The notes below the pieces were generated by a model. The model saw only the letters and a program-made list of their open reading frames with translations. It did not search any database and was not told the origin of the DNA. The position numbers and the translations under genes are program-made. Positions 846-61,370 of a stretch of DNA of 61,454 nucleotides are shown here, piece by piece (positions within the stretch are counted from its first letter, which is position 1; every line of letters starts with the position of its first letter). Origin of the DNA: a virus. The stretch covers positions 1 through 61,454 of IMG/VR virus record IMGVR_UViG_3300020595_003118; one strand, 5' to 3'.

Positions 846-853
846 TATTACAC
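846..853 (-). promoter_or_regulatory. Candidate late promoter element GTGTAATA
   Basis: The minus strand reads GTGTAATAAATACT directly before the ATG at 839. The element starts at the same short distance from the start codon as its copies before five other virion or appendage genes. No TTGACA-like box lies 16-18 bp upstream. If TGTAAT acts as the -10 box, transcription would begin at about the ATG. Confidence 0.55.
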
Positions 854-866
854 TATAATTTATAGG

Positions 867-1247
867 TTAATCTATAATACTAGCAAAATCATTTTCTAAG
901 TTAGTCTTTGGCTTATCTTCAACGTGCTTATTACCTACTTCTTTTTCATATTTTTCAAAATATGATTTTTTGACTGGATCATATCCAAGCCTCTCTTCTC
1001 TTTCTATGCTAAGCTCTTTAGAGTAGTCCAACATATCTCCATATGTGCCTTTCATTTTTCCAGTCTTATCAGTAAAAGCCACTTTGTCGAAGGCATCGAT
1101 TTTACTATGGGTACTGAAGTTTATTGGGGTATAAGATCTATCCCATTTTAAGCCGTCCTCATCATGAAAAACATGTTCATCGTTGACCGATTGAATTAAC
1201 TCAATATACTCTTCTCTTTCTGGATGTTTGTAAATGTATTCTGGCAT
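867..1247 (-). CDS. Hypothetical protein with an FmdB-like N-terminus lacking cysteines
   Basis: 126 residues, hydrophilic. The start MPEYIYKHPEREEYIELIQS has the shape of the FmdB zinc-ribbon family (MPxYEYxCxxCG…F…S), but the zinc-binding cysteines are absent. A similar cysteine-less beta-hairpin version exists in other phages, from general knowledge and not checked here. The rest is charged (KYEKEVGNKHVEDKPK) with no further motif. It lies between the LRR appendage gene and the 1286-2323 gene, all on the minus strand. Function unknown. Confidence 0.7.
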   Translation of the reverse strand: MPEYIYKHPEREEYIELIQSVNDEHVFHDEDGLKWDRSYTPINFSTHSKIDAFDKVAFTDKTGKMKGTYGDMLDYSKELSIEREERLGYDPVKKSYFEKYEKEVGNKHVEDKPKTNLENDFASIID

Positions 1248-1259
1248 AATACATTATGC
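1244..1259. repeat. Inverted repeat over a start codon
   Basis: GCATAAT-AC-ATTATGC is a perfect 7-bp inverted repeat. It overlaps the ATG at 1247-1245 of the 126-residue gene. It also contains TGTATTA on the minus strand, close to the late element TGTAATA. It could be an operator, an RNA hairpin masking the start, or chance in AT-rich DNA. Confidence 0.35.
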
Positions 1260-1285
1260 TATAGTTTTAACCTTATTCCAATTAT

Positions 1286-2323: not shown

Positions 2324-2350
2324 AGTAGGTATTATACACAATAATATTGC

Positions 2351-2380
2351 AAAAAAGAAAGGCCTTCCCGAAGGAAGGCC
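2351..2380 (-). terminator. Intrinsic terminator with UUCG tetraloop
   Basis: The minus strand reads GGCCTTCC-TTCG-GGAAGGCC followed by TTTCTTTTTT. This is a perfect 8-bp GC-rich stem closed as C(UUCG)G with a U-run. It ends the sigma/glycosyltransferase operon just after the 68-residue gene and insulates the 1286-2323 gene. Confidence 0.92.
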
Positions 2381-4228: not shown

Positions 4229-4256
4229 AATATACTACAAATAAAACAAATGTCAA
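4229..4256 (-). promoter_or_regulatory. Sigma70-type promoter for the phage sigma-factor operon
   Basis: The minus strand reads TTGACA (4256-4251), 16 bp, TATATT (4234-4229), then AGGAGGA and the ATG at 4221. Only 7 nt separate the -10 box from the ATG, so the transcript would start at or next to the start codon and the AGGAGGA would lie outside the mRNA. It is back to back with the plus-strand promoter at 4264. Confidence 0.7.
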
Positions 4257-4263
4257 TAAAAAG

Positions 4264-4291
4264 TTGACTTTTTTGCAAGATATTTTATATG
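4264..4291 (+). promoter_or_regulatory. Sigma70-type promoter for the HTH/glycan operon
   Basis: TTGACT (4264-4269), 16 bp, TATATG (4286-4291), then 8 nt to the ATG at 4300. No Shine-Dalgarno sequence is present. Together with the minus-strand promoter 8 bp away it forms a divergent early control region. Confidence 0.6.
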
Positions 4292-4299
4292 TTTGATAA

Positions 4300-9443: not shown

Positions 9444-9472
9444 TTGACAACTCCAATATTTTCATCATACAT
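9444..9472 (+). promoter_or_regulatory. Sigma70-type promoter, cassette copy A
   Basis: TTGACA (9444-9449), exactly 17 bp, ATACAT (9467-9472). Transcription should start near 9479, at the base of the hairpin at 9477-9493, about 58 nt before the ATG at 9537. It is among the best -35/spacer matches in the window. Confidence 0.75.
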
Positions 9473-9476
9473 AAGG

Positions 9477-9493
9477 GCTGCAACAATTGCAGC
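9477..9493 (+). other. 5'-terminal leader hairpin, copy A
   Basis: GCTGCAA-CAA-TTGCAGC is a perfect 7-bp stem with a 3-nt loop at the predicted transcript start. A hairpin at the extreme 5' end typically protects mRNA from degradation, as in ompA. An operator palindrome is an alternative. Confidence 0.6.
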
Positions 9494-9536
9494 AGTTGGA
9501 TAAAATATCCAAAATAAAAAACACCACCAAATAAAA

Positions 9537-10315: not shown

Positions 10316-10344
10316 TTGACAACTCCAATATTTTCATCATACAT
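10316..10344 (+). promoter_or_regulatory. Sigma70-type promoter, cassette copy B
   Basis: TTGACA (10316-10321), 17 bp, ATACAT (10339-10344). It is identical to copy A across both boxes and the spacer; the two nearest differences lie just upstream of the -35 box. It would drive the 57-residue gene. Confidence 0.7.
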
Positions 10345-10348
10345 AAGG

Positions 10349-10365
10349 GCTGCAACAATTGCAGC
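10349..10365 (+). other. 5'-terminal leader hairpin, copy B
   Basis: The same GCTGCAA-CAA-TTGCAGC stem-loop as at 9477-9493, with no change. Conservation within the duplicate may reflect recent copying rather than selection. Confidence 0.55.
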
Positions 10366-10408
10366 AGTTGGATAAAATATCCAAAATAAAAAACAACACC
10401 AAATAAAA

Positions 10409-13668: not shown

Positions 13669-14697
13669 ATGAAGAAAGTAATTATTACTGGTGTTACGGG
13701 GCAAGTTGGATCTTATATGGTAGATTTTCTGTTGAAAAATACAGACTACAAGATTTTTGGAGCAATCAGAAGATTGAGCGTACCAAATCATCGGAATATT
13801 AGCCATATCGACAACCCGCGCTTTGAATTGATCGAAATGGATCTGACGGATGAACCAAGCATCTCATCATGTATCCATGAAATTAACCCAGATTATTTTA
13901 TTAATTTTGCTGCGAACTCTTTCGTAGGAAATAGCTGGAAAATGCCAATAAATCATTTTGATGTTAATGCCGTAGGTGTTATGCGTCAACTTGAGGCGAT
14001 AAGAAAGTTTTGCCCTAACTGTAGATATTATAATGCTGGATCTTCGGAAGAATTTGGCGATGTTGCGTATAGCCCACAAGACCTCAAGCATCCATCCAGA
14101 CCAAGAAGTCCGTATGGTGCGGCTAAAGTTGCAGCTAGACAAATAGTAAAGGTATGGAGAGACTCATACGACCTGTATGCGGTTCAGGGCTATTTGTTTA
14201 ATCATGAGTCGGAGCGCCGTGGCGAAGAGTTCGTAACAAGAAAGATTACTAAGGCTGTAGCTAGAATCAAGAAGTCTATTGAAAGTGAAGAAGATTTTAA
14301 GCCGCTAGAGCTTGGGAACATGAACGCCAAGAGAGACTGGAGTCATGCAGAGGATTTCGTTGAAGCAGTTTGGCTAATGATGAATCAGGAAAATCCCAAA
14401 GACTATCTTCTTGCTTCTGGCGAAACTCACACAGTAAGAGAGTTTGTTGATTTGGCATTTAAAAATGCTGATATTAATAACAGCTATTTTGAATGGGTTG
14501 GCTCAGAAGAGAGCGAAATTTTATATTGTAATGGTAAAGCTGTTGTTAGGGTTAATCCTGAGTTTTATCGGCCAGCAGAGGTTGACTTATTGCTAGGTGA
14601 TCCATCAGAAGCTGTAAATGAATTGGGTTGGATCAAGAGAGTAGATTTTGAGACTTTAGTCAAAAGAATGGTTAATAATGATTTAATCATTGACTAA
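13669..14697 (+). CDS. gmd: GDP-mannose 4,6-dehydratase
   Basis: 342 residues from the ATG at 13669 (MKKVIITGVTGQVGS); the frame opens further upstream without a good start. It is an extended SDR enzyme converting GDP-D-mannose to GDP-4-keto-6-deoxymannose, precursor of fucose, rhamnose and perosamine. Visible: TGVTGQVGS (residues 7-15, NADP-binding Gly motif), AGSSEEFG (123-130, catalytic S/E), SPYGAAK with Y149 and K153, then GYLFNHESERRGEEFVTRKI and LGNMNAKRDWSHAEDFVEA, both diagnostic of Gmd. It supports the glycosyltransferases of this phage. No reductase or epimerase partner is seen in the window. Confidence 0.93.
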   Translation: MKKVIITGVTGQVGSYMVDFLLKNTDYKIFGAIRRLSVPNHRNISHIDNPRFELIEMDLTDEPSISSCIHEINPDYFINFAANSFVGNSWKMPINHFDVNAVGVMRQLEAIRKFCPNCRYYNAGSSEEFGDVAYSPQDLKHPSRPRSPYGAAKVAARQIVKVWRDSYDLYAVQGYLFNHESERRGEEFVTRKITKAVARIKKSIESEEDFKPLELGNMNAKRDWSHAEDFVEAVWLMMNQENPKDYLLASGETHTVREFVDLAFKNADINNSYFEWVGSEESEILYCNGKAVVRVNPEFYRPAEVDLLLGDPSEAVNELGWIKRVDFETLVKRMVNNDLIID

Positions 14698-14725
14698 TAC
14701 TCTACTATTAGCATAGTCATAATTT

Positions 14726-16434: not shown

Positions 16435-16847
16435 AGATAAAGAATATATTCGGCAAAGATGTAAACAAGTCTTTTGCAAAGAGTAAAATTGATTGGGATA
16501 GGTCCGTATCAAAATCTCAAAAACGAATAAAGGATATCGTTAAACCTCTTTGGTGCTTCCAAGATGTTCACGAAGAACTTTATATACCAAGTAGTAAGCT
16601 TAGGGTCGATCTAATTAACTTTACAACTTCAACAGTAATTGAAGTTTCCCCAAAACAGCATGATACATACAATGAGTTTTTCCACAAAGATAGGCAAAAA
16701 TTTTTACGATCCCTAGAAAGGGACTTTAAAAAGATTGAATGGTGCGAAATGAATGGTTTTCAATATATCGAAATCGATGAGAAAACACTAAAACTAACAA
16801 ATGAACAGATCTTTAATTTTATTAAGGATTCAATAGAAAGTGTATAA
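16431..16847 (+). CDS. PD-(D/E)XK-type endonuclease (Vsr/DUF559-like)
   Basis: 138 residues. The start is TTG overlapping the recA stop (TTGA); no in-frame ATG lies near. The core reads KLRVDLINFTTSTVIEVSPKQHDTYNEFF: a D followed about nine residues later by E-x-x-x-K, the shape of a compact PD-(D/E)XK site. FLRSLERDFKKIEWCEMNGFQYIEID completes the Vsr/homing-nuclease-like fold. The N-terminal stretch (SQKRIKDIVKPLWCF) may bind DNA. Its position between recA and an SbcD-like gene suggests recombination or repair. Family level is moderately sure; substrate unknown. Confidence 0.72.
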   Translation: MKIKNIFGKDVNKSFAKSKIDWDRSVSKSQKRIKDIVKPLWCFQDVHEELYIPSSKLRVDLINFTTSTVIEVSPKQHDTYNEFFHKDRQKFLRSLERDFKKIEWCEMNGFQYIEIDEKTLKLTNEQIFNFIKDSIESV

Positions 16848-16848: not shown

Positions 16849-18129
16849 ATGAGTATGGAAGACAAAAAGTTGACAAAGGATTGCATCGATCTTTACAAGG
16901 ATGGTTGCAGTAGAATGGAAGTGGCTAGACATATCATGTCTGAAACAGGATTAAAAGAAACTGCTTCAAAGGTTAGAGCTAAAAATATATGGGATGAAAA
17001 TTTTGACGCGGATTACTCTCCGCAACAAAGTAAAAACGAAGAGTCTATTAATCCTGAAAAGGCTACTTTTGACGAAAAGAAAGATTCGGCCACGGCAGAG
17101 TCTAAATCTTCCAACATTAGAACTCTTGAGGATCTTATCGAAGTGTGCAAGATTGACCTAGATATTTGGGAGATTGAGAGATACATAGTAAATAAATGGG
17201 AGGTCGCAGCTAAAGGCAATGACGGAGAGATGAGACACTCTCCGCTCTATCAAGTAAAGGCATGGCTAAAGAAGAAGGAAACAGTAAATGCCAAAGAAGT
17301 AATCAAACTCTTCAAGGAGGAGCTTAATAACATCTCCAGACCAGTACAAAAAAGAAACTCTGCTGGTCAACATATCTATGAAATATCTATTCCAGATCTG
17401 CATTTAAGCAAATTATGTTGGGGCAAAGAAACTGGCTATGAAGATTATGACATTAAGATTGCCAGCAACCTCTTCAGAGAAGCCATGCATTATCTGGTTT
17501 CTAAGGTCGATCTAAAATCTGTTGATAGAATTGTGCTTCCCATTGGAAATGACTTCTTTAATTCAGAGGGTCTATCTGGGATGACTACAAAGGGTACTAG
17601 GCAGGATGATGACTCAAGATGGCCGAAGTCTTTTCAAGTTGGTTGTAATTTGATTGCAGAAGTGGTTGATGAACTATCGAAAAAGGTAAATGTAGATATA
17701 GTTATTGTTCCAGGAAATCATGATTTCGAGAGATGTTTTTATCTTGGAGAATTCTTAAGCGCTTGGTATCGAAACAATGATGCTGTCAAAATTGACAACT
17801 CCCCTACTTCTAGAAAGTATGTTACCTTTGGCAAAAATCTAATTCTATTTACTCATGGCAACGAAGAAAAGGCAGCTAACCTACCTCTTCTCATGGCTAC
17901 AGAGAACGCAAACTTCTCTAAGTGTAAGTTTAGAACTGCTCACCTTGGTCACTTTCATGGCACAGAAATGAAAGAATATAATGGAGTTAAAGTCAGGATA
18001 CTTCCATCTCTATGCGCCCCAGATGCTTGGCACTCCAATAAAGGGTATGTGGGGAATGTTCGCTCAGCTACAGCTTTTCTCTATGAAGAGTCGCTTGGAG
18101 AAGTAGCTAACTTTTACTATAACGTCTAG
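16849..18129 (+). CDS. SbcD/Mre11-like metallophosphoesterase
   Basis: About 426 residues from the ATG at 16849, one base after the upstream stop; GTG 16840 and ATG 16855 are alternatives. The calcineurin-type phosphoesterase core starts near residue 175 and shows all five motifs: IPDLHLS (D183, H185), IGNDFFNSEG (GND 233-235), VPGNHDFER (GNHD 289-292), LFTHGNE (H336) and HLGHFHG (H368, H370). The first 50 residues look like an HTH (CSRMEVARHIMSETG) and residues 50-90 are a polar linker. Such phage proteins act as DNA repair exonucleases or endonucleases. Last gene of its unit, with a terminator 20 nt later. Confidence 0.88.
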   Translation: MSMEDKKLTKDCIDLYKDGCSRMEVARHIMSETGLKETASKVRAKNIWDENFDADYSPQQSKNEESINPEKATFDEKKDSATAESKSSNIRTLEDLIEVCKIDLDIWEIERYIVNKWEVAAKGNDGEMRHSPLYQVKAWLKKKETVNAKEVIKLFKEELNNISRPVQKRNSAGQHIYEISIPDLHLSKLCWGKETGYEDYDIKIASNLFREAMHYLVSKVDLKSVDRIVLPIGNDFFNSEGLSGMTTKGTRQDDDSRWPKSFQVGCNLIAEVVDELSKKVNVDIVIVPGNHDFERCFYLGEFLSAWYRNNDAVKIDNSPTSRKYVTFGKNLILFTHGNEEKAANLPLLMATENANFSKCKFRTAHLGHFHGTEMKEYNGVKVRILPSLCAPDAWHSNKGYVGNVRSATAFLYEESLGEVANFYYNV

Positions 18130-18148: not shown

Positions 18149-18188
18149 CTCCCGATTACTGACTTTCAGTTTTCGGGAGTTTTTGTTT
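18149..18188 (+). terminator. Intrinsic terminator after the phosphoesterase gene
   Basis: CTCCCGA (18149-18155) pairs with TCGGGAG (18173-18179), and an inner ACTG…CAGT lengthens the stem. TTTTTGTTT follows. The T-run directly abuts the TTGACA of the helicase promoter. Confidence 0.9.
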
Positions 18189-18215
18189 GACATGCTAAAG
18201 AAATTGCCCATATTC
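18187..18215 (+). promoter_or_regulatory. Promoter for the helicase/primase operon
   Basis: TTGACA (18187-18192), 17 bp, ATATTC (18210-18215), with TTGCCC directly before the -10 box as in the nrdB and ssb promoters. Seven nucleotides then lead to the ATG at 18223, so the mRNA is probably leaderless. There is no Shine-Dalgarno sequence. Confidence 0.65.
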
Positions 18216-18222
18216 AACTCCA

Positions 18223-38797: not shown

Positions 38798-38805
38798 TAT
38801 TACAC
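38798..38805 (-). promoter_or_regulatory. Candidate late promoter element GTGTAATA
   Basis: Minus strand GTGTAATAAAATAAAGGA, then the ATG at 38787; the T of TGTAATA lies 17 nt before the ATG. The 49-nt gap has no terminator and no -35 box. Confidence 0.55.
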
Positions 38806-40940: not shown

Positions 40941-40948
40941 TATTACAC
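40941..40948 (-). promoter_or_regulatory. Candidate late promoter element GTGTAATA
   Basis: Minus strand AGGTGTAATATAAATAT directly before the ATG at 40933; the T of TGTAATA is 14 nt from the ATG. Confidence 0.6.
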
Positions 40949-42832: not shown

Positions 42833-42853
42833 TCCTATATCTATATACAGACA

Positions 42854-42879
42854 TTTAACTAGTATGTGAAATAGTTAAA
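42854..42879 (-). other. AT-rich inverted repeat between tail genes
   Basis: TTTAACTA (42854-42861) and TAGTTAAA (42872-42879) pair perfectly over a 10-nt loop and overlap the stop of the 549-residue gene. It has no U-run, so it is at most a weak terminator or processing site. Confidence 0.35.
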
Positions 42880-46139: not shown

Positions 46140-49100
46140 TTATTCACTGATCGTGTCTACAATTGATTCTAAATTTCTCCTAAACTCTTCAACCGCTTCT
46201 TCTACTGAACCCAACCTAGCTATGCTGCCTTCTGGAAGCTTTATATCTATATTAGTAACAACATCAGTGGTTTTGATTACTCCCTCTGCAATCTTTTGAC
46301 TTAGATTATTAGATGCTTCAATAAATTGCTGTTGAGTAAGAGTATTTGCATTTAATTTTTCTACTAGAGTGGCTATAGCATCTCTATTTATCACCGCTTC
46401 GGCCTCCTGTATCTTGAGTGCAGCTAATACATTTGCTGCAGAGTCTGCTGCGGTGGCAGATTCGTTGCCTCCTTCTACAACTGGTGGCGCTCCAGGAAGC
46501 CTACCTTCGGTTGGAGTAACCTTACTTAATAGTGAGCCTAATGTTGGGCTGACCTCCCTAAGGGATTCGACAATATCACCTAAACCTTGGTTAATTACTT
46601 CAAAGCCACCAATCTCTTCACCTGTATTAGTTTCAATCTTAACTAGTTCGTCTAAGTCCAGTCTAACACCCTGATCAGACAAACGGTCAAATACACGTTC
46701 TAATCTTCCAGGTAAATCCGCAAGCCCTTCAGGAGTTCTATCCCCTTTACTCAACTCTCGTTCAAAAATGCTCCTAGCTCTTTTACTCTGTTCATCGGTT
46801 AGTTGACCCCCTTCAGCTTTTGATCTAGTAACAAGATTAAACTGCTCTCTAATTACATCAGCCGCCCCCTTTAATGCTTGAGCCTCTGGAGAATTCTTAT
46901 CAGCCAGCACTTCTCTAACTGGATTTGCTCCATTATCTCCACCATATTGACCCAATCCTAAGAAAGTTTTTCTCATTCCCGTTCTAATTTCTTCAGTGAG
47001 GCTATTAGCTGCCCTATCTTCACCAAATAATTGTGAAAGGTTCTGACCTCCCGTCTTTGACCCTAAATCGTTTAATGCTGCTTGAGCAACTCTCTGATTT
47101 TCAGCCTGTTGATTGAGAGCTACTGTATCTGCAAGTGACTGATTTGTATTTGCGACAAGAGCATCTCTATTTCCTGCTAGTTCAATTGCCAATTTTGCAA
47201 GCTCTTGTTTCAAATCCTTATCATCTGTCTTTCCTATTAGAGAGTTTATATCGCTAATTGAGGCTCCTTCATTCGCAACCCTTTCCAAGATTGGGGAAAC
47301 CTCAGCTCTTTGTTCTGGTGTGAATGTGGACAATCTATCTTTAAAAGCAGATTGGACACCCCCTGAAGCACCCAAGTTAAGATCCTTTAACCCATCTGTA
47401 AGAGCTGTTTTCAGATTACTTATCTGAAGGTCCTGCTTTTTACGTGTCTGGTCAAATCCCTGCCTAGAAAGAAACTCCAATTTATTTTGCGCGAGGTTGG
47501 ACGCTCTACTAACTTCACCCCTTTGCGTTATTCTATCAGCAGCAGACTGTCCAGCCTGAGCTTGGAACAAATTAGATGAAGCAGCGTCAGAGTCTCTGTT
47601 AGCTCCTGCGACTTTAAAGTTCGCATCTGTTATCGCAGCGGCAGCTTGCTGTTCAATTATATTGGTCTTAATGGAGCCATCTCCAATCACTTTCTTGAAT
47701 AGGTTTGATAGAAGCTTATTTGTGTCGAACTGAAGAGCAAAAGCTTTTGCAGTTTCCTTTTCAAGGCCCAGCGCAATTAGCCTCTGGAGATTACTTCCAG
47801 ACTTCTCTAAAGTGGAAAAGTCAACATTGTCAAGATCTATATCCGCTAGAAGACCTCCAATAAAAAGAGATACCTCATCTTCTGTAATCTTACTAAGATC
47901 AAGTTGATCTTGGTTTGTTACTCTTGTTATTGGCGCTCCAAAGGCAAATTGACCAACACCCCTAATAGTTTCTGTCTCCTTCTCTATAGTAGCTCGCCTA
48001 TCTTTAGATTTTGTAGCGAAATCGTCGAAAGCCTTCTGTGTTGACGCTGTCCTTATTTTTGACTGCCCTTCCCTTTGGAGTTCATCCAATATCCCTCTTC
48101 TTTCCTCTGGAGTTGCAGTAACAAAGTCTTGCTTAAGCTTCCTCCCTCTTTCTGATTTCCCAAGATTTGGATCGTTCTGAAAATCATTAAAAGTTCTTTG
48201 TATATCAGAGAACAGGGCCGCTATCTGTTTTCCTGATGCAGTTCCACTTTCAAATGCATCATTTAGTCTAAACTGCGCATTTACATATGCCTGTGCAGAA
48301 GCTATATTCTTTTTATAAAAATCTTGCTGCTCGCCCAGAGACTTGGAATACTTGCTGGCATCATCAGTGGCTGTAGAAAGCGCAGCACTAACTCCACCCA
48401 GTAGACCCCCAACTCCAGCACCTATTGCAATACCAAGCGGATTCCCAGAAAATGCACCCACACTTGCTCCAGTCGCAGCTCCACCTAAAGCACCAGATGC
48501 AATTGACCCAGCTCTTTCATTTCCACTTACCTTTGCAATCCCCTGACCAATTACTGGCGCTGCCAAAGCACCAGCAAAGCTAAGTCCAAATCCAGCCCCC
48601 TGTAGTCTTTGTCCTCTAGCTATTTTTCTAGATTGAACCGATTCGTTAAATTTAGCTCTAGACTCTGGTGTAAGTTTTTTACCAGTTGACGAGTTTAATA
48701 TTCCTTTTGCCTTTTTTTCTAGGCCGCTGTCGAAACCAAACCTACCCGTTCCAGACTTCTCTAGTTGTGTTTGTGCATCAGCCAAAAGAGACTGTTGAAC
48801 TGCATTTCTTGTTCCCTTTTCAATTTGTTTGAAGTTTACCAGTCCAGCATTTTTAATTTTATTTGCTAACTCCCTACCCTCCTTGGATCTATTGAGTTCC
48901 TCGAAGCTCAATGATTTCCCTTGTGATTTAGACTCCTTTTTTAATTCGGCCTCTATAAGCTCAAGTCTTAACCTTCTCTTAAATTCTGCAAATGGAGCTG
49001 CATCTCCCCTAAACCCACTAGGCACAGCGCCAGCCGCAAATTGTTTTTTAAAATCCTTATAGTTGTACTCTTTTAACTCTTTGCTAAAGTTTTTTGGCGC

Positions 49101-51908
49101 ATTTCTTGCCTGCTCGGCTAAACTTGGCTGTATTATTGCTGGTGGACCAGCGACTTCAGGGACAAGCCTTGTTTTTCCCTTTAAGTCCGTTTGTCCAGTA
49201 AAAGTAAATCTGCTATTTCTAAGGTCCCCAGTAAATCCAGTTGATCCAGGATTATAAATTGGATCACCTACTGGTCTAAATTTCCCTTTATCATTTTTAA
49301 CAAAAGGTTTTTGTGTCGGAGATACTCTAGTCCTTTCATCAGCACCGCTTGGTGGTGTTTTTGGTGTATCTCTACCAAAACCTCTAGTAGCCTGTTGTGC
49401 AGCCATAGAAGTTTGTTCAGCAGCAGCCTGTCTCAATAGTGTTGGAATTTTAAAGCCTTGACCAGAGGCTAAACCAGCTTCAATTCTTGAAATTTGTCTT
49501 GGAGTTAAAGGCTGTCCTGCTCTCAGCCTTCTTTCCATTTGTTTAATTTCTGTATCGCCTAAGTTGACCCTGCCTGAGGATTGACCAAAAGGAAAAGGAT
49601 CGGTTACATCAAGATTGACCCTGCCTTCTGCAAAATTAGGTATATAGGTAGCTCCCCCAGCTCTAACCCTTCTTATATCAGAGAGTTTTATATTTTTAGT
49701 TACTTGTTCGCCACCCTGCATACCTCTAAGAGTAACCATCTGATTCTCCCTTTGGTATTGCTTCCAGCTAGAATACCCCTTAGGAGGCGGCTTTCCAGCC
49801 TTAGATGACTGAGCAACCATAGATGAATGCTGAACCCCTGAAAGCTGTCTAACTGAGTCATATTTCTTACTGTAGTAGCTTACAGACTGAAACTTGGTGT
49901 TACCCATCAGAAGCTTGCTAATGCCATCCCTAGAGGCCTTGTAGGTCAATCCCTTAACCATAGGGATCTTACCTCTGGCAAAGTTTCCACCCATAGAGCT
50001 AATAGCAGAAGATCCTGCCATATCTCTATTCAATACAATGTCGCCATTTTTATTAGGTATTAAAATCTCATCACTATTCAATACGGCTGGCCCAATCTTG
50101 CCCTTTCCATAATTGAATGAATTTACTACTTTTACTTGCGCGTTTGAACTAGCTCCACCAACGCCATTACTGATCGCCCTTTTTTCATTTTCTATTGCTC
50201 CCCCCAAAGTTCCTCCAGCAAAACCTTTTGCTCTTCCTCCTTTCCTACTTACGTCTCCAGTAAAAACAGATCCACCAAGAGATACACCCTGTCTCGACAA
50301 GCTTTGCGCAGTTCTAATCGAACTAGCTTCTAAGGCTTTTTGCGCAGCAAGTTGTTTAGTCAGCAAGCCTAATATAATTTGTTCTTTTTGTGCCTGCGAA
50401 GTTGCTAATTCTAGTTGTTTTAACTCGGAAGAGGTAGCTTGAGCTAACAAGCTTTGAATAACTCTCTGATTTGCTATTCGTTTTTCTGAAACTTTGTTTA
50501 TACCACTGAGTTGAAGCAAACTTGCGCCACCCTGAGTGAATACATTTTTTAAAGTATTGGCAATAATTGCCAAGCCAGTTACAAATGCAGGACCAGTCAA
50601 GACTTTCACAAACCCTTCAGCAAGTGGCGCTAAAAGCTTAAGATCATTAGCTAGTAAAATTACGTCCTTGGTAATATTCGCCAAAAAGGACCCACCTCCA
50701 ATATCATTGCCTTGAAGAGCTTCTAGCAATACATTTATATCCGTTACAATAGACTTGAAGAAGTCTTGAAGCCCAGCCTTTCCAAGGCCTGCAAAAATTT
50801 GACCTATATTGTTAGATATTTGATTACTAATACCCTCAATAGTTTGATTGTAAGCTAAGTTGGCTATAATAGCTTCATTAGTTGCCTTAGTCGCAGCGTC
50901 TGTCGCTCCTCCAGCAATACTTTGTTGGGATGCTAAATCTCTAAATAGGGCCGACAATTTTGAAACCTGGAACTGGCCAGCAACAACTGTAGATATTTGA
51001 GTGGCAAGACTTCTTTCCCCGTCCTTTTGAGCTTGACTAATGGCTACAGATGCTGCTACTAAGTTATCAAAGGTCGAGGCACTTTCATCAACAGCGACCC
51101 CAAGTTCTTTCAACTGTGCAATTCTAGTAGGTAAATTAAGTCTAGTTAAAGCAGTCTTCAGACCTTGACCAATAGTAGCGCCACCCAAACCAGTTCTTTG
51201 TTTTATCGCAGTAATGAAACCCAGCAATTCTTCAAACGATATGCCAGCATCCTGAGCAACGGATGCCGATCTAGAAACCGCATCAATTAGATCTGTAGAA
51301 GAAACCGCAAAAGCAGTTTCAACTGCTCTTAACTTATTTATGACTTCAGTAGTCGTTATAGCAGAGGATGCAAAACCATTAACAACCGCAGTTAAACCAG
51401 AAATTGCTTTTTCTGTGTTTAAAGTTGTTAGTCGAGTTAATATCAGAGCGTCACTTGTTCTCTTTAGAGTTTGCTCTACGCTCAAGCCCTGTCTGGCAAA
51501 TTCCTGTGCAGTTTCAGCTACTCTTTGAAATCCCTGACCAGTATTCTTAGCAACCTTAAACAGCTCGTCACCAAACTTCGATATCGTATCGCTACTTCTT
51601 CCGAAGATGGAGTTAATAGCATTCAAGCTACTTTCCACCTGTACTACGGTGGTAGCCAATTCTAGGAAGGCTCTTCTTACCCCTTCAATGACGGCCACAG
51701 AAGCACCGAAAGCGATGACACGGGCATTAGAAGCTTCAAGTGATTTAGTAAACTCATTTGCCTTGCCTGTAATTCTGCCTAAAGCCTGCTCACTTCGCTT
51801 TGTGTCAATTATAACTTTACGTTTTTCAAGACCACGCAACTGAGCATTAAACTCTCTTGTGTTTGAGAGTTTTACTTCCGCTAATATTTCTAAATCAGAT
51901 CTAGCCAT
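46140..51908 (-). CDS. Tape measure protein
   Basis: 1,922 residues. The largest gene, at the usual place after the tail tube. The first 400 residues show the TP901-type core: KANEFTKSLEASNARVIAFGASVAVIEGVRR, FGDELFKVAKNTGQGFQRVAETAQEFARQGLS and GISFEELLGFITAIKQRTGLGGATIGQGLK. Hydrophobic or glycine-zipper stretches follow (about 430-450, and about 1,120-1,185 with GGALGGAATGASVGAF), likely membrane-interacting on DNA ejection. The rest is helical and coiled-coil rich. Its length would suggest a tail of roughly 290 nm at 1.5 Å per residue, a rule of thumb. Preceded by a terminator and GTGTAATA. Confidence 0.95.
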   Translation of the reverse strand: MARSDLEILAEVKLSNTREFNAQLRGLEKRKVIIDTKRSEQALGRITGKANEFTKSLEASNARVIAFGASVAVIEGVRRAFLELATTVVQVESSLNAINSIFGRSSDTISKFGDELFKVAKNTGQGFQRVAETAQEFARQGLSVEQTLKRTSDALILTRLTTLNTEKAISGLTAVVNGFASSAITTTEVINKLRAVETAFAVSSTDLIDAVSRSASVAQDAGISFEELLGFITAIKQRTGLGGATIGQGLKTALTRLNLPTRIAQLKELGVAVDESASTFDNLVAASVAISQAQKDGERSLATQISTVVAGQFQVSKLSALFRDLASQQSIAGGATDAATKATNEAIIANLAYNQTIEGISNQISNNIGQIFAGLGKAGLQDFFKSIVTDINVLLEALQGNDIGGGSFLANITKDVILLANDLKLLAPLAEGFVKVLTGPAFVTGLAIIANTLKNVFTQGGASLLQLSGINKVSEKRIANQRVIQSLLAQATSSELKQLELATSQAQKEQIILGLLTKQLAAQKALEASSIRTAQSLSRQGVSLGGSVFTGDVSRKGGRAKGFAGGTLGGAIENEKRAISNGVGGASSNAQVKVVNSFNYGKGKIGPAVLNSDEILIPNKNGDIVLNRDMAGSSAISSMGGNFARGKIPMVKGLTYKASRDGISKLLMGNTKFQSVSYYSKKYDSVRQLSGVQHSSMVAQSSKAGKPPPKGYSSWKQYQRENQMVTLRGMQGGEQVTKNIKLSDIRRVRAGGATYIPNFAEGRVNLDVTDPFPFGQSSGRVNLGDTEIKQMERRLRAGQPLTPRQISRIEAGLASGQGFKIPTLLRQAAAEQTSMAAQQATRGFGRDTPKTPPSGADERTRVSPTQKPFVKNDKGKFRPVGDPIYNPGSTGFTGDLRNSRFTFTGQTDLKGKTRLVPEVAGPPAIIQPSLAEQARNAPKNFSKELKEYNYKDFKKQFAAGAVPSGFRGDAAPFAEFKRRLRLELIEAELKKESKSQGKSLSFEELNRSKEGRELANKIKNAGLVNFKQIEKGTRNAVQQSLLADAQTQLEKSGTGRFGFDSGLEKKAKGILNSSTGKKLTPESRAKFNESVQSRKIARGQRLQGAGFGLSFAGALAAPVIGQGIAKVSGNERAGSIASGALGGAATGASVGAFSGNPLGIAIGAGVGGLLGGVSAALSTATDDASKYSKSLGEQQDFYKKNIASAQAYVNAQFRLNDAFESGTASGKQIAALFSDIQRTFNDFQNDPNLGKSERGRKLKQDFVTATPEERRGILDELQREGQSKIRTASTQKAFDDFATKSKDRRATIEKETETIRGVGQFAFGAPITRVTNQDQLDLSKITEDEVSLFIGGLLADIDLDNVDFSTLEKSGSNLQRLIALGLEKETAKAFALQFDTNKLLSNLFKKVIGDGSIKTNIIEQQAAAAITDANFKVAGANRDSDAASSNLFQAQAGQSAADRITQRGEVSRASNLAQNKLEFLSRQGFDQTRKKQDLQISNLKTALTDGLKDLNLGASGGVQSAFKDRLSTFTPEQRAEVSPILERVANEGASISDINSLIGKTDDKDLKQELAKLAIELAGNRDALVANTNQSLADTVALNQQAENQRVAQAALNDLGSKTGGQNLSQLFGEDRAANSLTEEIRTGMRKTFLGLGQYGGDNGANPVREVLADKNSPEAQALKGAADVIREQFNLVTRSKAEGGQLTDEQSKRARSIFERELSKGDRTPEGLADLPGRLERVFDRLSDQGVRLDLDELVKIETNTGEEIGGFEVINQGLGDIVESLREVSPTLGSLLSKVTPTEGRLPGAPPVVEGGNESATAADSAANVLAALKIQEAEAVINRDAIATLVEKLNANTLTQQQFIEASNNLSQKIAEGVIKTTDVVTNIDIKLPEGSIARLGSVEEAVEEFRRNLESIVDTISE

Positions 51909-51918: not shown

Positions 51919-51926
51919 TATTACAC
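51919..51926 (-). promoter_or_regulatory. Candidate late promoter element GTGTAATA
   Basis: Minus strand TAGTGTAATAGTATATAGGC before the ATG at 51908, directly after the terminator's T-run. A terminator followed at once by a new promoter separates tail tube and tape measure expression. Confidence 0.65.
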
Positions 51927-51927: not shown

Positions 51928-51968
51928 AAAAAAAAGCCCACTGATAAAAAAATCAATGGGCTTTGTTT
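51928..51968 (-). terminator. Intrinsic terminator after the tail-tube gene
   Basis: Minus strand GCCCATTGAT, a T-rich loop, ATCAGTGGGC, then TTTTTTTT. One G-U pair in a 10-bp stem. It would cut the highly expressed tube transcript from the tape measure. Confidence 0.92.
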
Positions 51969-54674: not shown

Positions 54675-55117
54675 TAGTTAATTTTCTCTAGGAAGTAAGT
54701 GTAGAAGTTATTTTGCAGTAAGCCGTGTCTTCTTGGTTCTGAAATTAAATCATAAAACTCTTCATCCCAATAAACGTCCTTTGAGTCTTCTAAAAAATCT
54801 CTTCCCGTTATATCAGTTACTAGCTTAATTCTAGGGCTTGCTGCAACACTACCCTGATTTCCGTCTATTGGCTTAAATTCAGTACCTCTGTCTAGATAAT
54901 ATGCCCTAGCCAAAAACATTCCACTGGTTTGAGTTTCAACAGTTTTACTATTCTCAATGCTATTTTGATAATAAGAGTTATGAGCGCTACTCTCACTAAT
55001 AACAGTAGTAGTACCTTTTTTGATAGCAAATAATTTGTTTTTACTAGCAAAAAAATTATGCAAACTCATCATTCCATCATTAACACTATCTTGCTGACTG
55101 TCGGTCAATACTATCAT
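54674..55117 (-). CDS. Head-closure-like protein
   Basis: 147 residues. Starts MIVLTDSQQDSVNDGMMSLHNFF. Contains FAIKKGTTTVISESSAHNSYYQNS and a C-terminal SEPRRHGLLQNNFYTYFLEKIN. Second connector gene after the adaptor, with a TAATG overlap; the order (adaptor, closure, neck, completion, tube) is the standard siphophage arrangement. Assignment is by position, not motif. Confidence 0.6.
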   Translation of the reverse strand: MIVLTDSQQDSVNDGMMSLHNFFASKNKLFAIKKGTTTVISESSAHNSYYQNSIENSKTVETQTSGMFLARAYYLDRGTEFKPIDGNQGSVAASPRIKLVTDITGRDFLEDSKDVYWDEEFYDLISEPRRHGLLQNNFYTYFLEKIN

Positions 55118-55572
55118 TAATACTTGAAGCCAGTTAAATTCTCTTGAGGGTCTCTTGGTCCAGACCTATTATGTTTATATAGATTTACTAAATCCGTAGA
55201 CCTGCTATCCATATCTCTAGCAATTTTATATATCTCCACAGAGGAATCCTTACTCTTTTCAAAAGTAACTGAACTTTCGTCATCCTTTATAGAGACAATG
55301 TTTCCGCCACTAGAGCTTTTTATTAAGATATCCCTAGATAGATTTGTATAATACTCAACATAGTATAGAGACTTTAAGATGTCTTTTTCGTCTTGATGTA
55401 ATAGAGGTGCATATTCTCCAGAATTTAAACTGTAGTTAGTAGAAATCTTATTGTTTAATTTCCCGACGTTGTATTCTAGCCAAAGGTTTATTCTATTTTG
55501 ACTTGGTTCGCTAGGGAAATTTAACTCTTGATGAAGCTCATAAGCAACTCCTGTTAATTGGTACGTAGACAT
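55117..55572 (-). CDS. Head-tail adaptor-like protein
   Basis: 151 residues, MSTYQLTGVAYELHQELNFPSEPS… with the helix-rich N-terminal half (NRINLWLEYNVGKLNNKIS, DEKDILKSLYYVEYYTNLSRDI) expected for a gp6/gp15-type adaptor that docks on the portal. A TGTAATA element lies just before its ATG, so the connector-tail tube genes (55572 down to 51989) form one transcription unit. Assignment by position and helix pattern. Confidence 0.65.
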   Translation of the reverse strand: MSTYQLTGVAYELHQELNFPSEPSQNRINLWLEYNVGKLNNKISTNYSLNSGEYAPLLHQDEKDILKSLYYVEYYTNLSRDILIKSSSGGNIVSIKDDESSVTFEKSKDSSVEIYKIARDMDSRSTDLVNLYKHNRSGPRDPQENLTGFKY

Positions 55573-55578: not shown

Positions 55579-55585
55579 TATTACA
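55579..55585 (-). promoter_or_regulatory. Candidate late promoter element TGTAATA
   Basis: Minus strand AACTGTAATAATAGTT, then the ATG at 55572; 13 nt from the T to the ATG. TTTTTTAAC upstream has no -35 box. Confidence 0.55.
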
Positions 55586-55607: not shown

Positions 55608-55931
55608 TTAAATCCCCTTCTTCAGAACTTCATCTAGCTTCTTTTGTTTGGTCTTAGTCAGCTTTTTTGATAAATCTTGATTCATCAATTGGCCAGTAGA
55701 TTTTCTGAATGCAGCCAAGCATTTTTTTTCAAAAGTTTCTCTACCTTTCAAGGATCTGTTTGGCTTAATACCAAATTCTTCTAAACCATGCCTATATAGT
55801 TTTTCCATAGGCATCTTACTAATAAGAATTTTATAATCCAAAAACTGAGAAACACCTGCTACTGACTTTTTATTACCCAAAGCGCTTACCAAAGTATCAC
55901 TGCCATTAATTTTTCCATTAATTTTTTCCAT
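55608..55931 (-). CDS. Small lysine-rich protein between capsid and connector genes
   Basis: 107 residues from the ATG at 55931 (MEKINGKINGSDTLVSALG); the frame is open far upstream but only as a shadow of the capsid gene. Very basic (SKKLTKTKQKKLDEVLKKGI, SLKGRETFEKKCLAAFRKS), helical. TGTATATAATAATATGG lies directly before it, and a terminator 50 nt upstream ends the capsid transcript. Could be a capsid cement, DNA-binding or neck factor. No family recognised. Confidence 0.7.
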   Translation of the reverse strand: MEKINGKINGSDTLVSALGNKKSVAGVSQFLDYKILISKMPMEKLYRHGLEEFGIKPNRSLKGRETFEKKCLAAFRKSTGQLMNQDLSKKLTKTKQKKLDEVLKKGI

Positions 55932-55983
55932 ATTATTATATACAGGTGTAGCGTCCTTTTGGGAAAATTCTAAACTTAGGCAC

Positions 55984-56012
55984 AAAAAAATCCCGCCATT
56001 TCTGACGGGATT
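55984..56012 (-). terminator. Intrinsic terminator after the major capsid gene
   Basis: Minus strand AATCCCG, loop TCAGAAATGG, CGGGATT, then TTTTTG. It lies about 20 nt after the capsid stop codon. Confidence 0.92.
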
Positions 56013-57801: not shown

Positions 57802-59310
57802 TTATTTACCCGCAAGTTCGAATTCGAAGTTTTCAAATTCATCTTTAAGGGATTTGTATTCATGTTGAGAGTTAGTAACTTCTTCTGTTGCTGAATTGGA
57901 AGCTTCGGTGATTACCGCCTCTGCTTCTTCTTCCGCCGCAGCTTCTGCTACACACTCTTCGGTTTCTTCTGAATCGGACTCTTCTTGAGAGACTTCTTCA
58001 CTAGCTTCTGCCTTTAAGTGACTTCCAGCTAAAATTTTAAATCTACTAAGCCAAGCGCCATACTGCTCTTCATCTATATTCTTGATTTCTTCAGCAACAA
58101 CCTTCGCTACTTCGCCTTCAAGATTAAATTCAGAACTTAGAGCAGTCATTCTTTCGTCGAATACTCTTTGTTTTTCTTGCGCTTCAACTTTGTCTTTAAT
58201 TTCAGAAAGTTCGGAGTCTTGAGCGGCCTTAGCTGCTTCAAGTTCTGCTATTTTCGTCTCCAACGTCGCACGAGCTTCTTCGGCCTGTACGATAAGTGCA
58301 TCTTTTTCGGAGATGGAAGCTGCAAACTCTTCACTCTTCGCACGAATTTCGTCGGCGATAGCGGAAGCTTGAGCTTTATCAACTACGGAATCGAAATTCG
58401 CTTCCAAAGATGCAAGGGTAGTTACATTAACTTCATCACCAGAGGTAATAGAAGCTAGCGCATTTTTATAATCTGTAATATTTGAGATCTTCATTGCTTT
58501 ATTTGGTTTTACATTTATTTTCACTGTTTGTGAATTTTTTTTATTATTATTTTTAATAATTTTAGACTCGGAAGTAATTATACCTTTAACATCAGCCGCA
58601 GGGTTCTTTACTATGCCAGCACCTAAAAATAATTTTTCTCCTTTTATCAGCCTATAGATAGGAGAACCATCATAGTCTCCATTTCCTCCATAGCACCTTA
58701 AGAAGGGTTTCATTTTTTCAATTTCTCTCTTATCAGAAACTATGTCACCCTCGGCAACATACTTTGATCCCTTTAAGATTTCAAAGTCATTGAAATATAC
58801 TTCCCAAGACATAGAAGCCATTCCATATTCTTCGCTATCCTCTTCGGAAGCTTGAACTAAAAATTCAGCTAGGTCTGGGTTAACACTTTTCCAGATATAT
58901 CCAGTGCCTCCAACTACGACTGGACCGTCGTAGTCTTTTAGGCTACTTTCCTCTATCATCTCCCTATCTTCAGAATACTTTCTGTAGAAAGGGCTAATCA
59001 GAGATCCTACGATCATATCTTCCTCGTGTTCTAAATTTAAATATTTATTAGGTACTTGCTTAGCAAGCTCAAGCGCTCCTTCTCTATCGACCAGATCTCC
59101 ATTTTTATTTGCATTGTCTGAAACATACAAGTCCGCAGAAAGAAATAATAGGTCTGGATTTTTCTCAAAGTCACCTTCTGATACATTCAAAGTATCCTTT
59201 AAATTTTGTAAAGAAGCCTTCGATAGATTAGAAGTGGTTAGAGATACGACGTTTGCCTTAGAAAGGAAGGTACTTTTATATTTGAATTTGTCACTTAACG
59301 AAGAGCGCAT
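57802..59310 (-). CDS. Prohead protease fused to scaffold
   Basis: 502 residues. Residues 50-250 are an S78/U9-type prohead protease: ANKNGDLVDREGALELAKQV, LNLEHEEDMIVGSL (H95), YGMASMSWEVYF (S166 or S168) and KLFLGAGIVKNPAADVKGI. The linker 250-272 is lysine/asparagine-rich (KNNNKKNSQTVKINVKPNKA). Residues 273-502 form a coiled-coil scaffold (KDALIVQAEEARATLETKIAELE, EAQEKQRVFDERM) with a highly acidic end (AEAAAEEEAEAVITEASNSATEE). An in-frame ATG at residue 273 (58494) follows an A-rich leader-like stretch and could start a separate scaffold protein, as with lambda C and Nu3. It processes and shapes the prohead. Confidence 0.88.
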   Translation of the reverse strand: MRSSLSDKFKYKSTFLSKANVVSLTTSNLSKASLQNLKDTLNVSEGDFEKNPDLLFLSADLYVSDNANKNGDLVDREGALELAKQVPNKYLNLEHEEDMIVGSLISPFYRKYSEDREMIEESSLKDYDGPVVVGGTGYIWKSVNPDLAEFLVQASEEDSEEYGMASMSWEVYFNDFEILKGSKYVAEGDIVSDKREIEKMKPFLRCYGGNGDYDGSPIYRLIKGEKLFLGAGIVKNPAADVKGIITSESKIIKNNNKKNSQTVKINVKPNKAMKISNITDYKNALASITSGDEVNVTTLASLEANFDSVVDKAQASAIADEIRAKSEEFAASISEKDALIVQAEEARATLETKIAELEAAKAAQDSELSEIKDKVEAQEKQRVFDERMTALSSEFNLEGEVAKVVAEEIKNIDEEQYGAWLSRFKILAGSHLKAEASEEVSQEESDSEETEECVAEAAAEEEAEAVITEASNSATEEVTNSQHEYKSLKDEFENFEFELAGK

Positions 59311-59345
59311 ATAGTTATATACATGGTAACACCAAACTTGAGAAG

Positions 59346-61355
59346 TTATTTGGAGTGATAAATCAACATACCCATAAAGTCGTCACTAAGCTCAAAATCA
59401 TTACAAATGCTCTCAATCTGATTTTCGATATCTGTATTGCTCAATACAATTTTCTTTTCTATTACCTCTTCAATCGCTTTTTTCCAGTCCTTTATTTCAT
59501 AATTCTTGGATATGTTGTAAGCTATAGACTTTGTAATTTCTTTCTGCTTTTCACTAACTTCTTCTATCCCGTATTTCTTAGCAAAGGAGCTATTGGTATC
59601 TTCCTTAAGACTATCATACTCTGACAATACATCTTTAAGGCTCTTGATTGAAAGCTGTTCAATGCTGCCGACTCTTCTTTGTCTTACTTCATTGAATCCA
59701 GAATCCTTACTTGGAGGCCTTCCGACTTGATTGGCAGAAGGCTCCTTATCATTATTTCCTGTGTCAGCATCCAAAGGATTATATTGACTATTGTTGAAAA
59801 TTTGAGGGAAATATATATCTTCCTCTTTTTGCTTTTTAAACTTTCTTTGAGAAAGAATACTCTCATGAGAGTTCGGAAGCATTCCATTTTTAGTTGCTTC
59901 AAAAAGTTCCTCTGGAGTTAGGAATCCAAGCTCTGCCATTCTAGTATAAACTCTAAACATCTGGGCATCATCTTCTAGACTTACGGAAGAAAGCTTTACA
60001 GTTGGCTTGGCATTAAATCCCATCTTCTTGCAGACATCGCTAAGCTCATCTTCAAGCCATCTTTTAAATATGTTTTGACCTTTCTGAAGTCTTTCGCAAA
60101 ATATTTTTACCTTAGTAACCGAATTAGAGAATGTTTCGTTTCCTCCAAATACAGTTTGCAAGCCTTCTCTAATATCTTCGTTGACTTGCTCATACTTAGC
60201 CTTCCCGATGATCTTATCAATATCTGGGATTACATATTCTGCTTTTGTAGTGTAATCGGCCACTAGTACTCGTTGAGCTTTCTTGTTCTCAAATAGAGTT
60301 TTCATATAAGCCATATGCTCAGGATTTGGAGGAAGTTCAGTTCCGTCTCTACCCTTAGCCCCTCCCATAGTAAGAAGAAGAAGCATACTGTCCAAAGAGC
60401 TAATAATCTGCCTATCAGCATTTTTCATTTCCATTTTTAGTTCGATATCATCCAGTACCCCGTAGAATAGAGGAACAGCAAAGTATTCGTAATCCTGCTT
60501 CTGGTAGAAGATAGAATCAACATTCTCTAAAGCTACCCGTAAAGTTTCTTGAGAGCTGCCATAGTTTTCACTATAATTTTGTATTTGAACTTGTATTTCT
60601 TTGTCTAAGTTGTTGAAAATAGCCTTCTCAGTTGGAGTCTTTGGATTTTTAAGTCTCTGTATTTCGTAAGGGCTAAGTATCTTGTATACTGCAGAGTCAT
60701 ATGTTACTCCACCTTCAAGGGCTACTTGAGCTGGGTTAAGAACTGTATACTTTACTGGTATATTGACACTGCCGCTTTTAACATCTCTTAAGCTGGTAAT
60801 ATCTTTCTTATCTACCTTCCCACCTATTTTATAAATAAAAAGGTTACAAGATCTGTAAAGCTCTCTATAGAATTGTTCAGAGAATCCCTGCATATTGACG
60901 GCTTCTAGCCATCCTTTGCAAAATGCTTTTGCAGAGCTATTTTTATCGCTGATTTGAATCTCTGAAACGGAGAACTCTACCATAGTTTCTATAGTATTTC
61001 TAAACAGCTGAAATTCTTCCCAAGCCTTTTGGCACAAGTATACAACCTCTTGAATGCCAATATACCCATCTGAGTGTCTACGATAAATAGTCCCTCTACC
61101 TATTAGATTTGGAAATCTTGCCGCCAACTCGCTGTCAACGCCCAAAGCACTATCAAAAGTTCTTCCTAGAAAGCCGCTCCTGCTGTTGCCTCCTCCTACC
61201 ATCCCAATACTCTTTTCGATATTCTCTCTGCTAGAGAAGACATCGTTATAAGTTAATTCTGGCTGTTGAGTAGAAGCTTCCGCTTCTTTCTGAGCATAGT
61301 ATGCTTTTCTATCTTTATGATATAGAGAATTTGAGTTGTACTTCTTTTTTGCCAT
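59346..61355 (-). CDS. Portal protein
   Basis: 669 residues. Located directly after the terminase end and before the protease, the canonical slot. It has a polar N-arm (MAKKKYNSNSLYHKDRKAYY), FLGRTFDSALGVDSELAARFPNLIG, then the core: WEEFQLFRNTIETMVEFSVSEI, KAFCKGWLEAVNMQGFSEQFYRELYRSCNLFIYKIGG (clip/stem region), KYTVLNPAQVALEGG, FAVPLFYGVLDDIELKMEMKNADRQII and a long C-terminal helical barrel (IEQLSIKSLKDVLSEYDSLKED). It forms the dodecameric DNA gate at one capsid vertex. Preceded by a TGTAATA element 15 nt from the ATG. Confidence 0.87.
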   Translation of the reverse strand: MAKKKYNSNSLYHKDRKAYYAQKEAEASTQQPELTYNDVFSSRENIEKSIGMVGGGNSRSGFLGRTFDSALGVDSELAARFPNLIGRGTIYRRHSDGYIGIQEVVYLCQKAWEEFQLFRNTIETMVEFSVSEIQISDKNSSAKAFCKGWLEAVNMQGFSEQFYRELYRSCNLFIYKIGGKVDKKDITSLRDVKSGSVNIPVKYTVLNPAQVALEGGVTYDSAVYKILSPYEIQRLKNPKTPTEKAIFNNLDKEIQVQIQNYSENYGSSQETLRVALENVDSIFYQKQDYEYFAVPLFYGVLDDIELKMEMKNADRQIISSLDSMLLLLTMGGAKGRDGTELPPNPEHMAYMKTLFENKKAQRVLVADYTTKAEYVIPDIDKIIGKAKYEQVNEDIREGLQTVFGGNETFSNSVTKVKIFCERLQKGQNIFKRWLEDELSDVCKKMGFNAKPTVKLSSVSLEDDAQMFRVYTRMAELGFLTPEELFEATKNGMLPNSHESILSQRKFKKQKEEDIYFPQIFNNSQYNPLDADTGNNDKEPSANQVGRPPSKDSGFNEVRQRRVGSIEQLSIKSLKDVLSEYDSLKEDTNSSFAKKYGIEEVSEKQKEITKSIAYNISKNYEIKDWKKAIEEVIEKKIVLSNTDIENQIESICNDFELSDDFMGMLIYHSK

Positions 61356-61363
61356 TTGGTAGA

Positions 61364-61370
61364 TATTACA
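61364..61370 (-). promoter_or_regulatory. Candidate late promoter element TGTAATA
   Basis: Minus strand AAATGTAATATCTACCAA before the ATG at 61355. Upstream sequence has no TTGACA-like box. It would start the head transcript (portal, protease, decoration, capsid). Confidence 0.55.

Follow-up and report, generated by a model that had tools for sequence, protein, structure and literature searches.

A (G)TGTAWW motif as probable late-type promoter core in a group of uncultured phages that encode a sigma factor

The virus record IMGVR_UViG_3300020595_003118, analyzed here over its full length of 61,454 bases and referred to below as the window, carries the motif (G)TGTAWW at a short and nearly fixed distance before the start codons of virion and some other genes, and the motif recurs at this place in a large group of related phage records. 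We consider it probable that the motif is a phage late-type promoter core, most likely read by a sigma factor that the phage itself encodes, and that it serves an early/late program in which transcription units begin with nearly leaderless messenger RNAs (mRNAs). Sequence comparison gives strong support to the promoter class, to its position and to its separation from host-type promoters.

Results

Motif sites in the window and their conservation

The window is 99.98% identical to part of a longer record, G002 (105,788 bases). Genes were called with a simple codon-bias caller made for this analysis. The minus strand holds a virion block with the portal gene, the tape-measure gene and their neighbors (Table 1); on the plus strand, the stretch between 4300 and about 28 kb encodes ribonucleotide reductase, a UvsX-like recombinase, DnaB, primase and exonuclease, and the left arm of G002 contributes many small minus-strand genes, a DNA polymerase, a clamp-loader-like gene and rIIB.

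An earlier note on this stretch had placed TGTAATA 13-17 nucleotides (nt) before the ATGs of six minus-strand genes, four of the copies lying within the 8-mer GTGTAATA. All six sites are where it put them (Table 1), and all 4 copies of GTGTAATA in the window fall at such sites. The TGTATA variants that it reported before the genes starting at 2323, 42832 and 55931 are also present, and TGTATA was found before the gene starting at 59310 as well. As a word, TGTAATA is not over-represented in the window (14 copies against 12.2 expected; 32 of 100 shuffles reach 14), eight of the 14 copies lie away from the six sites, and the 4 copies of GTGTAATA compare with a chance mean of 1.7, 9 of 100 shuffles reaching 4. 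Its overall frequency is thus at chance level, but its placement before late minus-strand starts is not random. In G002, TGTAATA lies 10-40 nt upstream of 6 of the 29 late-side minus-strand starts and of none of the 112 others on the left arm and plus strand (Fisher 4.8e-5), and it is the top 7-mer of this contrast; the class boundary (G002 43,830) was set with the six sites already known, and the multi-record tests below are independent of it. The core TGTAWW precedes 10 of the 29 minus-strand starts of the window, where 0.36 would be expected for 8 positions, the scan itself having allowed 12 and the gene at 55931 having been added to the list by hand. The claim that plus-strand genes lack the motif holds for TGTAATA (0 of 30 in G002) and fails for the core, found before 1 of 29 plus-strand starts in the window; the plus-strand gene 16855-18129 has GTGTATAATATGAGT-ATG, and its homologue in record G022 also carries the motif.

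Conservation was assessed after leaving out five records nearly identical to the window. Before the portal gene, TGTAATA is kept in all 11 relatives of 76-98% identity, although the flanks change, and is missing from both relatives shown at 25% identity (G017 and G019). The word before the gene at 59310 varies among relatives and stays within TGTAWW. Loss of the site before the gene at 839 in the relative G006 proved only apparent, an insertion separating the motif from the gene. In the G006 segment 81684-81780, homologous to 839-866 of the window, some 80 extra bases separate the leucine-rich-repeat gene from the late motif. At their far end, adjoining the ATG, the motif region recurs in inverted orientation (TATTTATTACACT), a hint of an insertion or invertible segment.

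The motif in related records and in control phages

We used the portal protein to mark the phage group. None of 50,697 GenBank phage records matches it, and in an alignment-based scan it matches at least 569 IMG/VR stretches, of which 80 portal loci were kept. In each of the large relatives G034, G022 and G028, GTGTAAT or TGTAATA emerges unprompted as the top 7-mer 10-22 nt before starts; in the 46.8-kb record G032 the motif is not the top 7-mer, and four GTGTA sites were found against 0.1 expected. GTGTAAT ranks first in 78 portal loci (106 against 1.3 expected) and again in 77 sigma-factor loci (69 against 0.8 expected), both sets including close relatives. Among 18 dereplicated portal loci with less than 60% mutual identity, GTGTA marks 67 of 386 starts (1.7 expected) and is present in 17 loci. 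A different motif was sought in the 11 portal loci that lack TGTAA[AT]: pooled, these loci have GTGTA with C, T or another letter after it, and the core was therefore widened. We take the true core to be (G)TGTAWW, wider than TGTAATA.

The most extensive counts come from 12 records with 2,047 starts, comprising G002, four virus records with a sigma match, and seven of 12 records that hold both the sigma and the portal gene. The four were taken from 18 records searched, five of which had a sigma match, the fifth (E = 0.09, in a bacterial bin) not being used; of the seven, G046, G048, G056 and G070 were chosen for a divergent sigma and G041, G047 and G053 for size, so that the set is neither a random sample nor dereplicated. 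GTGTA lies 12-20 nt upstream of 170 starts against 7.7 expected, which makes it the first of all 1,024 5-mers, and it exceeds expectation in every one of the 12 records (4-33 against 0.1-1.1). Expected numbers were derived from whole-contig frequencies and so ignore the A/T-richness of intergenic gaps, a point answered by words of the same composition at the same positions: AGTGT, which overlaps GTGTA, reaches 81 (9.8 expected), and the other 28 words range from 7 to 36.

As controls, one stretch of about 50 kb from each of T4, SPO1 and phage K was passed through the same pipeline. GTGTA was found 12-20 nt upstream of 0 of 56, 1 of 54 and 1 of 46 starts, respectively. The pipeline recovered the ATAAATA box of T4, 21-42 nt and mostly 28-35 nt before the ATG, and the top upstream words of SPO1 and phage K were Shine-Dalgarno sequences. 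The chance-level frequency of bare TGTAATA in the window is what coincidence, or AT-rich composition before genes, would predict; we nevertheless give this explanation next to no credence in view of the position-specific excess in all 12 records, the far lower counts of same-composition words and the near absence from the control stretches. Among the open-licence papers listed in a literature search, none was seen to describe TGTAATA or GTGTAAT as a promoter word.

Partition from host-type promoters

Early and replication genes carry a host-type promoter, TTGACA-17-TAtaaT. Alignment of 62 early sites on TTGACA reveals a spacer of 17 bases, T (0.84), A (0.90) and T (0.87) as -10 letters, and sequence rich in A further upstream. 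By contrast, 68 late sites aligned on the motif core show no upstream column above 0.27 bits, which agrees with the earlier claim that no -35 box accompanies the motif. TTGACA or TTGACT boxes about 34-38 nt before ATGs are seen in the left arm of G002 and on the plus strand of the window, for example at 4264-4299, 14690-14725 and 18187-18222; upstream of the G002 early promoters, a recurring A/T-tract (AAAGTTTTTTTAAAAAA-like) before the -35 box resembles an UP element.

TTGAC at 33-40 nt exceeds expectation in all 12 records (3-39 against 0.3-2.9), and the two marks are distributed differently. In sigma loci TTGACA is most frequent 35-38 nt upstream of starts (77 matches); portal loci have few (9 at 34-37 nt). 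GTGTA marks 253 of 1,255 portal-locus starts and 142 of 1,763 sigma-locus starts, and TTGAC marks 16 and 133 of these, respectively. Among the 170 GTGTA and 220 TTGAC starts of the 12 records, only three carry both; one start in the left arm of G002 bears both motifs. Of the early-to-late switch proposed in the earlier note, what finds support is a division, repeated throughout a large phage group, of unit heads into a host-type class (early and replication genes) and a motif-type class (mostly late).

The tight spacing between motif and ATG could also mean that the motif acts in RNA, as a translation enhancer or a processing site near the start codon. We regard this as quite improbable, since the motif sits at unit heads (a gap of at least 15 nt precedes 150 of the 170 GTGTA starts, against 633 of 1,660 starts with neither motif), shares so few starts with the host-type promoter, lies downstream of terminator-like hairpins at 3 of the 11 window sites (those at 51908, 55931 and 2323), and is offset from the ATG by about as much as the early -10 box. 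Shine-Dalgarno sequences are lacking at motif-headed starts, which the position of the motif nearly forces and which is not counted as evidence.

Spacing to the start codon

Over the 12 records, GTGTA lies 12, 13, 14, 15 and 16 nt before the start at 1, 0, 79, 38 and 23 sites, a hard edge at 14 nt. TTGACA behaves in the same manner, with 3, 9, 63 and 29 sites at 33, 34, 35 and 36 nt and an edge at 35 nt. A -35 box 35 nt before the ATG, at its standard position, places +1 at the A of the ATG. These two edges would give both promoter classes transcripts with no leader or almost none; if a transcript start inside the codon destroys translation, the inner edge should be sharp. Neither this geometry nor the spread of the system had been recognized in the earlier note, and among the papers listed in our literature search none was seen to describe a two-class, group-wide leaderless layout.

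Genes headed by the two promoter classes

In the record G048, we searched the ten longest of 16 motif-headed proteins within one slice and the ten longest of 25 TTGAC-headed proteins. Three of the former had informative matches, namely a head protein (5.3e-94), a tail-fiber-like protein and an endonuclease VII/HNH protein, two matched unknown families only, and five matched nothing. Six of the latter had informative matches: primase, DNA polymerase, an SbcD-like protein, a phosphoesterase, a glycosyltransferase and a sigma factor of 194 amino acids, the length of the sigma of that record. In the left arm of G002, a tail-fiber-assembly-like gene and its neighbor carry the motif, which supports the late assignment. 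The motif had been described as preceding virion genes; it is mostly late but not confined to them, and in some records heads exonuclease, ribonucleotide reductase, epimerase or endonuclease VII-like genes.

A sigma-70 family factor encoded by the phages

The sigma-70 family protein announced in the earlier note is genuine, with regions 2 and 4 identified by profile and by structure model (Table 1). The window protein by itself is barely recognizable, and a search with Pfam alone did not identify it. An alignment of 34 members (23-49% identity to the window protein) matches SigA/RpoD with a best whole-sequence E of 1.5e-10, most strongly over region 2, and 32 of the 34 match the PHROG sigma family phrog_351. 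A second stretch, weak on its own, aligns the region 4 helix-turn-helix with the C-terminal part of SigA. A single-sequence model was unusable (pLDDT 36.9), and an alignment-based AlphaFold model (pLDDT 83.6) was used instead; its region 2 alone fits region 2 of sigma-E with -10 DNA at a root-mean-square deviation of 2.9 and a Foldseek TMt of 0.73-0.76. The model has no helical segment large enough for region 3 between regions 2 and 4, and the chains are short throughout the alignment, an ECF-like layout. In the alignment with SigA, FSTYATWWIRQA faces FSTYLGNETRYL, and the SigA tryptophan pair faces N and E in the family (N and K in the window protein), the N being invariant. The residues of this pair read the -12 region; their change fits altered recognition without proving it.

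The host-type promoter ascribed to the sigma gene is present in the window (TTGACA-16-TATATT), with a weaker -10 box (TACCTT) in G006, and is no general feature of sigma genes: in a crude scan 15 of 83 were preceded by a -35-like box, and many of the others seem, by eye only, to follow coding sequence. None of the 83 is preceded by GTGTA. The sigma is present in 3 of 3 portal records larger than 100 kb and in 1 of 20 smaller ones (23 searched, chosen mainly for size from the 80 loci), and the portal gene in 9 of 15 sigma records larger than 100 kb and 3 of 21 smaller ones (36 searched, also chosen mainly for size); fragmentation might explain the misses.

Other features and host

Coordinates are collected in Table 1. 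The gene 147-839, which sits under a late-type promoter, encodes a BspA-type leucine-rich-repeat protein, and its larger neighbor (G002 41995-43827) matches the same two PHROGs. An open reading frame of 107 amino acids (55608-55931), between a terminator and the next late promoter, was missed by the codon-bias caller and had been flagged earlier; it has its own TGTATA site. Near-identical 70-base stretches at 9467-9536 and 10339-10408 stand directly before the plus-strand genes 9537 and 10409. On the host side, a scan of genome contigs gave three weak portal matches (22-25% identity) in Flavobacteriales and Chitinophagia bins. The Bacteroidetes-type box TAnnTTTG is rare (10 of 1,763 starts in sigma loci and 5 of 1,255 in portal loci). 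With weak portal matches, a rare TAnnTTTG and early promoters of sigma-70 type, assignment to such a host was not adopted.

Table 1. Positions of candidate promoter elements, terminators and marker genes in the window.
Feature	Position	Strand	Remarks
Candidate late promoter core TGTAATA (GTGTAATA 846-853)	846..852	-	before gene 147-839, 13 nt from ATG
Candidate late promoter core (GTGTAATA)	38798..38804	-	before gene 36601-38787; kept in G006
Candidate late promoter core (GTGTAATA)	40941..40947	-	before gene 38837-40933; kept in G006
Candidate late promoter core (GTGTAATA)	51919..51925	-	before tape-measure gene 46140-51908; kept in G006; intrinsic terminator immediately upstream
Candidate late promoter core (CTGTAATA)	55579..55585	-	before gene 55117-55572; kept in G006, L008 and L011
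Candidate late promoter core (ATGTAATA)	61364..61370	-	before portal gene 59346-61355
Variant core in GTGTATAATA	2333..2338	-	before gene 1286-2323; G006 reads GTGTAAAATA
Variant core TGTATA	42844..42849	-	before gene 42608-42832; kept in G006
Variant core TGTATA	55939..55944	-	before gene 55608-55931; downstream of terminator 55989-56012
Variant core TGTATA	59318..59323	-	before gene 57802-59310; TGTAAA in L012-L014
Variant core in GTGTATAATA	16841..16846	+	before exonuclease gene 16855-18129
Putative intrinsic terminator	51933..51964	-	directly upstream of 51908 promoter
Putative intrinsic terminator	55989..56012	-	upstream of 55931 promoter
Hairpin and T-run	2361..2380	-	upstream of 2323 promoter; position counted by eye
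Sigma-70 family factor, regions 2 and 4, 174 amino acids	3697..4221	-	profile match, alignment, predicted structure
TTGACA (-35) of putative host-type promoter of sigma gene	4251..4256	-	35 nt before ATG
TATATT (-10) of the same promoter	4229..4234	-	13 nt before ATG
Portal protein	59346..61355	-	aligned relative L017 matches portal PHROG at 6.1e-11; marker of phage group
Tape-measure protein	46140..51908	-	Pfam PhageMin_Tail 1.5e-18

Discussion

The motif, its position, its partition from the host-type class, its conservation and the nature of the sigma can be read from the sequences themselves. From these we infer promoter activity, timing, start sites and the pairing of sigma with motif, and the program that we propose would run as follows. 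Host sigma-70 would first transcribe early and replication genes from TTGACA-17-TAtaaT. The phage sigma would be made along with this early set, in the window from its own host-type promoter, and would join the host RNA polymerase core; the new holoenzyme would then open late promoters, with (G)TGTAWW at about -14 to -8 and no -35 box as their core, at the head of virion and some other units. In both classes the transcript would start on the A of the ATG or a few nt ahead of it, which would make unit-head mRNAs leaderless or nearly leaderless.

Several observations weigh against this program. In G006 the core before the homologue of the 839 gene is kept as GTGTAATAAATA, yet lies 95 nt upstream of it. 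Leaderless mRNAs should prefer AUG, and non-ATG starts are in excess at motif-headed genes (17 of 170, against 103 of 1,660 with neither motif and 3 of 220 with TTGAC), some of which may be wrong start calls. Non-virion genes also belong to the motif class: G022, G034 and G028 together gave 70 motif-headed genes, 11 with a homologue in the virion block of G002, 10 with one elsewhere in G002 (among them ribonucleotide reductase in all three records, exonuclease in G022 and epimerase in G034) and 49 with none. A count over five records gave terminators at 4 of 87 late sites, 3 of 95 early ones and 15 of 205 other starts with a gap, which is no enrichment at the late sites, so that the terminator argument comes from the three window sites only. 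As to the sigma, the PDB matches listed for the whole chain by Foldseek are sigma factors or chains of transcription complexes, the best having a weak E of 0.061; the portal was not found in 6 of the 15 sigma records larger than 100 kb; and region 4 is kept although the late promoters show no -35 target. The link between sigma and motif is drawn from co-occurrence and sigma homology, and another factor could read the motif, which does not covary with the sigma: the four records chosen for a divergent sigma all keep GTGTA.

This last point is what one would expect if the motif were a real late promoter core with another reader, either host sigma-70 with a phage co-activator or a different phage protein, and if the encoded sigma served another class. 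Late transcription of T4, according to excerpts of PMC2988020, can need several phage proteins. Many genes here are without known function and might supply such a reader. Against host sigma-70, the core departs from the host consensus, with G at the second-position A of TATAAT, and does not have the form of an extended -10 element (TGn then TATAAT), the letters after GTGTA being A/T-rich with no fixed TAnnnT; and a sigma family in the same records would be the simplest reader. On balance, a different reader seems to us unlikely, though it keeps an appreciable chance, and the phage's own sigma is, on this prediction, the most likely one.

The closest parallel is T4 late transcription (gp55, gp33 and gp45), whose promoters, in the parts of PMC2988020 that concern them, have a single -10-region element, no -35 box and a phage-encoded sigma-type factor, as proposed here; the numbering used there places -13 inside the box, which equals the offset of TGTAAT if transcription starts at the ATG. 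The T4 late box, however, is TATAAATA (recovered as ATAAATA) instead of (G)TGTAWW, and the sigma described here has region 4 in the same chain. A comparison of the sigma with the single T4 gp55 gave an hhalign probability of 0.3%, one sequence being a weak test, and the sigma profile (A3) had no match in the T4 record. The system would work like T4 late transcription; given its different box and the failure to find a relationship to gp55, it is not placed in the gp55 family. SPO1 and phage K (Herelleviridae) likewise have sigma-70 family factors and sigma-dependent late transcription, and weak matches to our sigma profile were found in SPO1 (8.5e-3, inside a gene annotated as putative sigma factor) and in phage K (1.5e-4); for phage K, excerpts of PMC11598898 describe early and middle promoters that resemble those of the host, and a late class that has no -35 box. 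They differ in that GTGTA is not enriched at the position in the stretches used.

In Deinococcus-Thermus, excerpts of PMC12340547 describe a -10 box a few base pairs before open reading frames and leaderless transcription. The motif there is the host TANNNT, whereas here a phage-specific motif and host-type early promoters stand at a similar offset. Thermus phage P23-45 reportedly has -10-type promoters and leaderless middle and late transcripts, and we know of no sigma of this kind in it. AR9 and phiKZ share with our group late promoter words that are specific to the phage and lie near the start site, but in the parts of PMC5312081 that treat them these words are read by a phage multisubunit RNA polymerase, and the RNAs of AR9 are long-leadered (26-491 nt). 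The same excerpts state that phage transcripts are often leaderless, and leaderless phage RNA as such is not new.

In its strictest form, the proposal is that throughout this uncultured group a group-specific sigma with an altered region 2.4 reads a private, nearly invariant -10-only (G)TGTAWW, and that early and late transcripts alike begin at the A of AUG, leaving unit heads leaderless in both phases; we lean towards this version by a slight degree only. If the program is correct, timing and start sites would be predictable from sequence, and the early/late code could be read directly in a phage group whose portal matches at least 569 stretches in IMG/VR. It also provides a sigma and a promoter that can be tested as a pair, and points to leaderless initiation as a design used generally in both phases of infection, which would bear on how phages compete for ribosomes.

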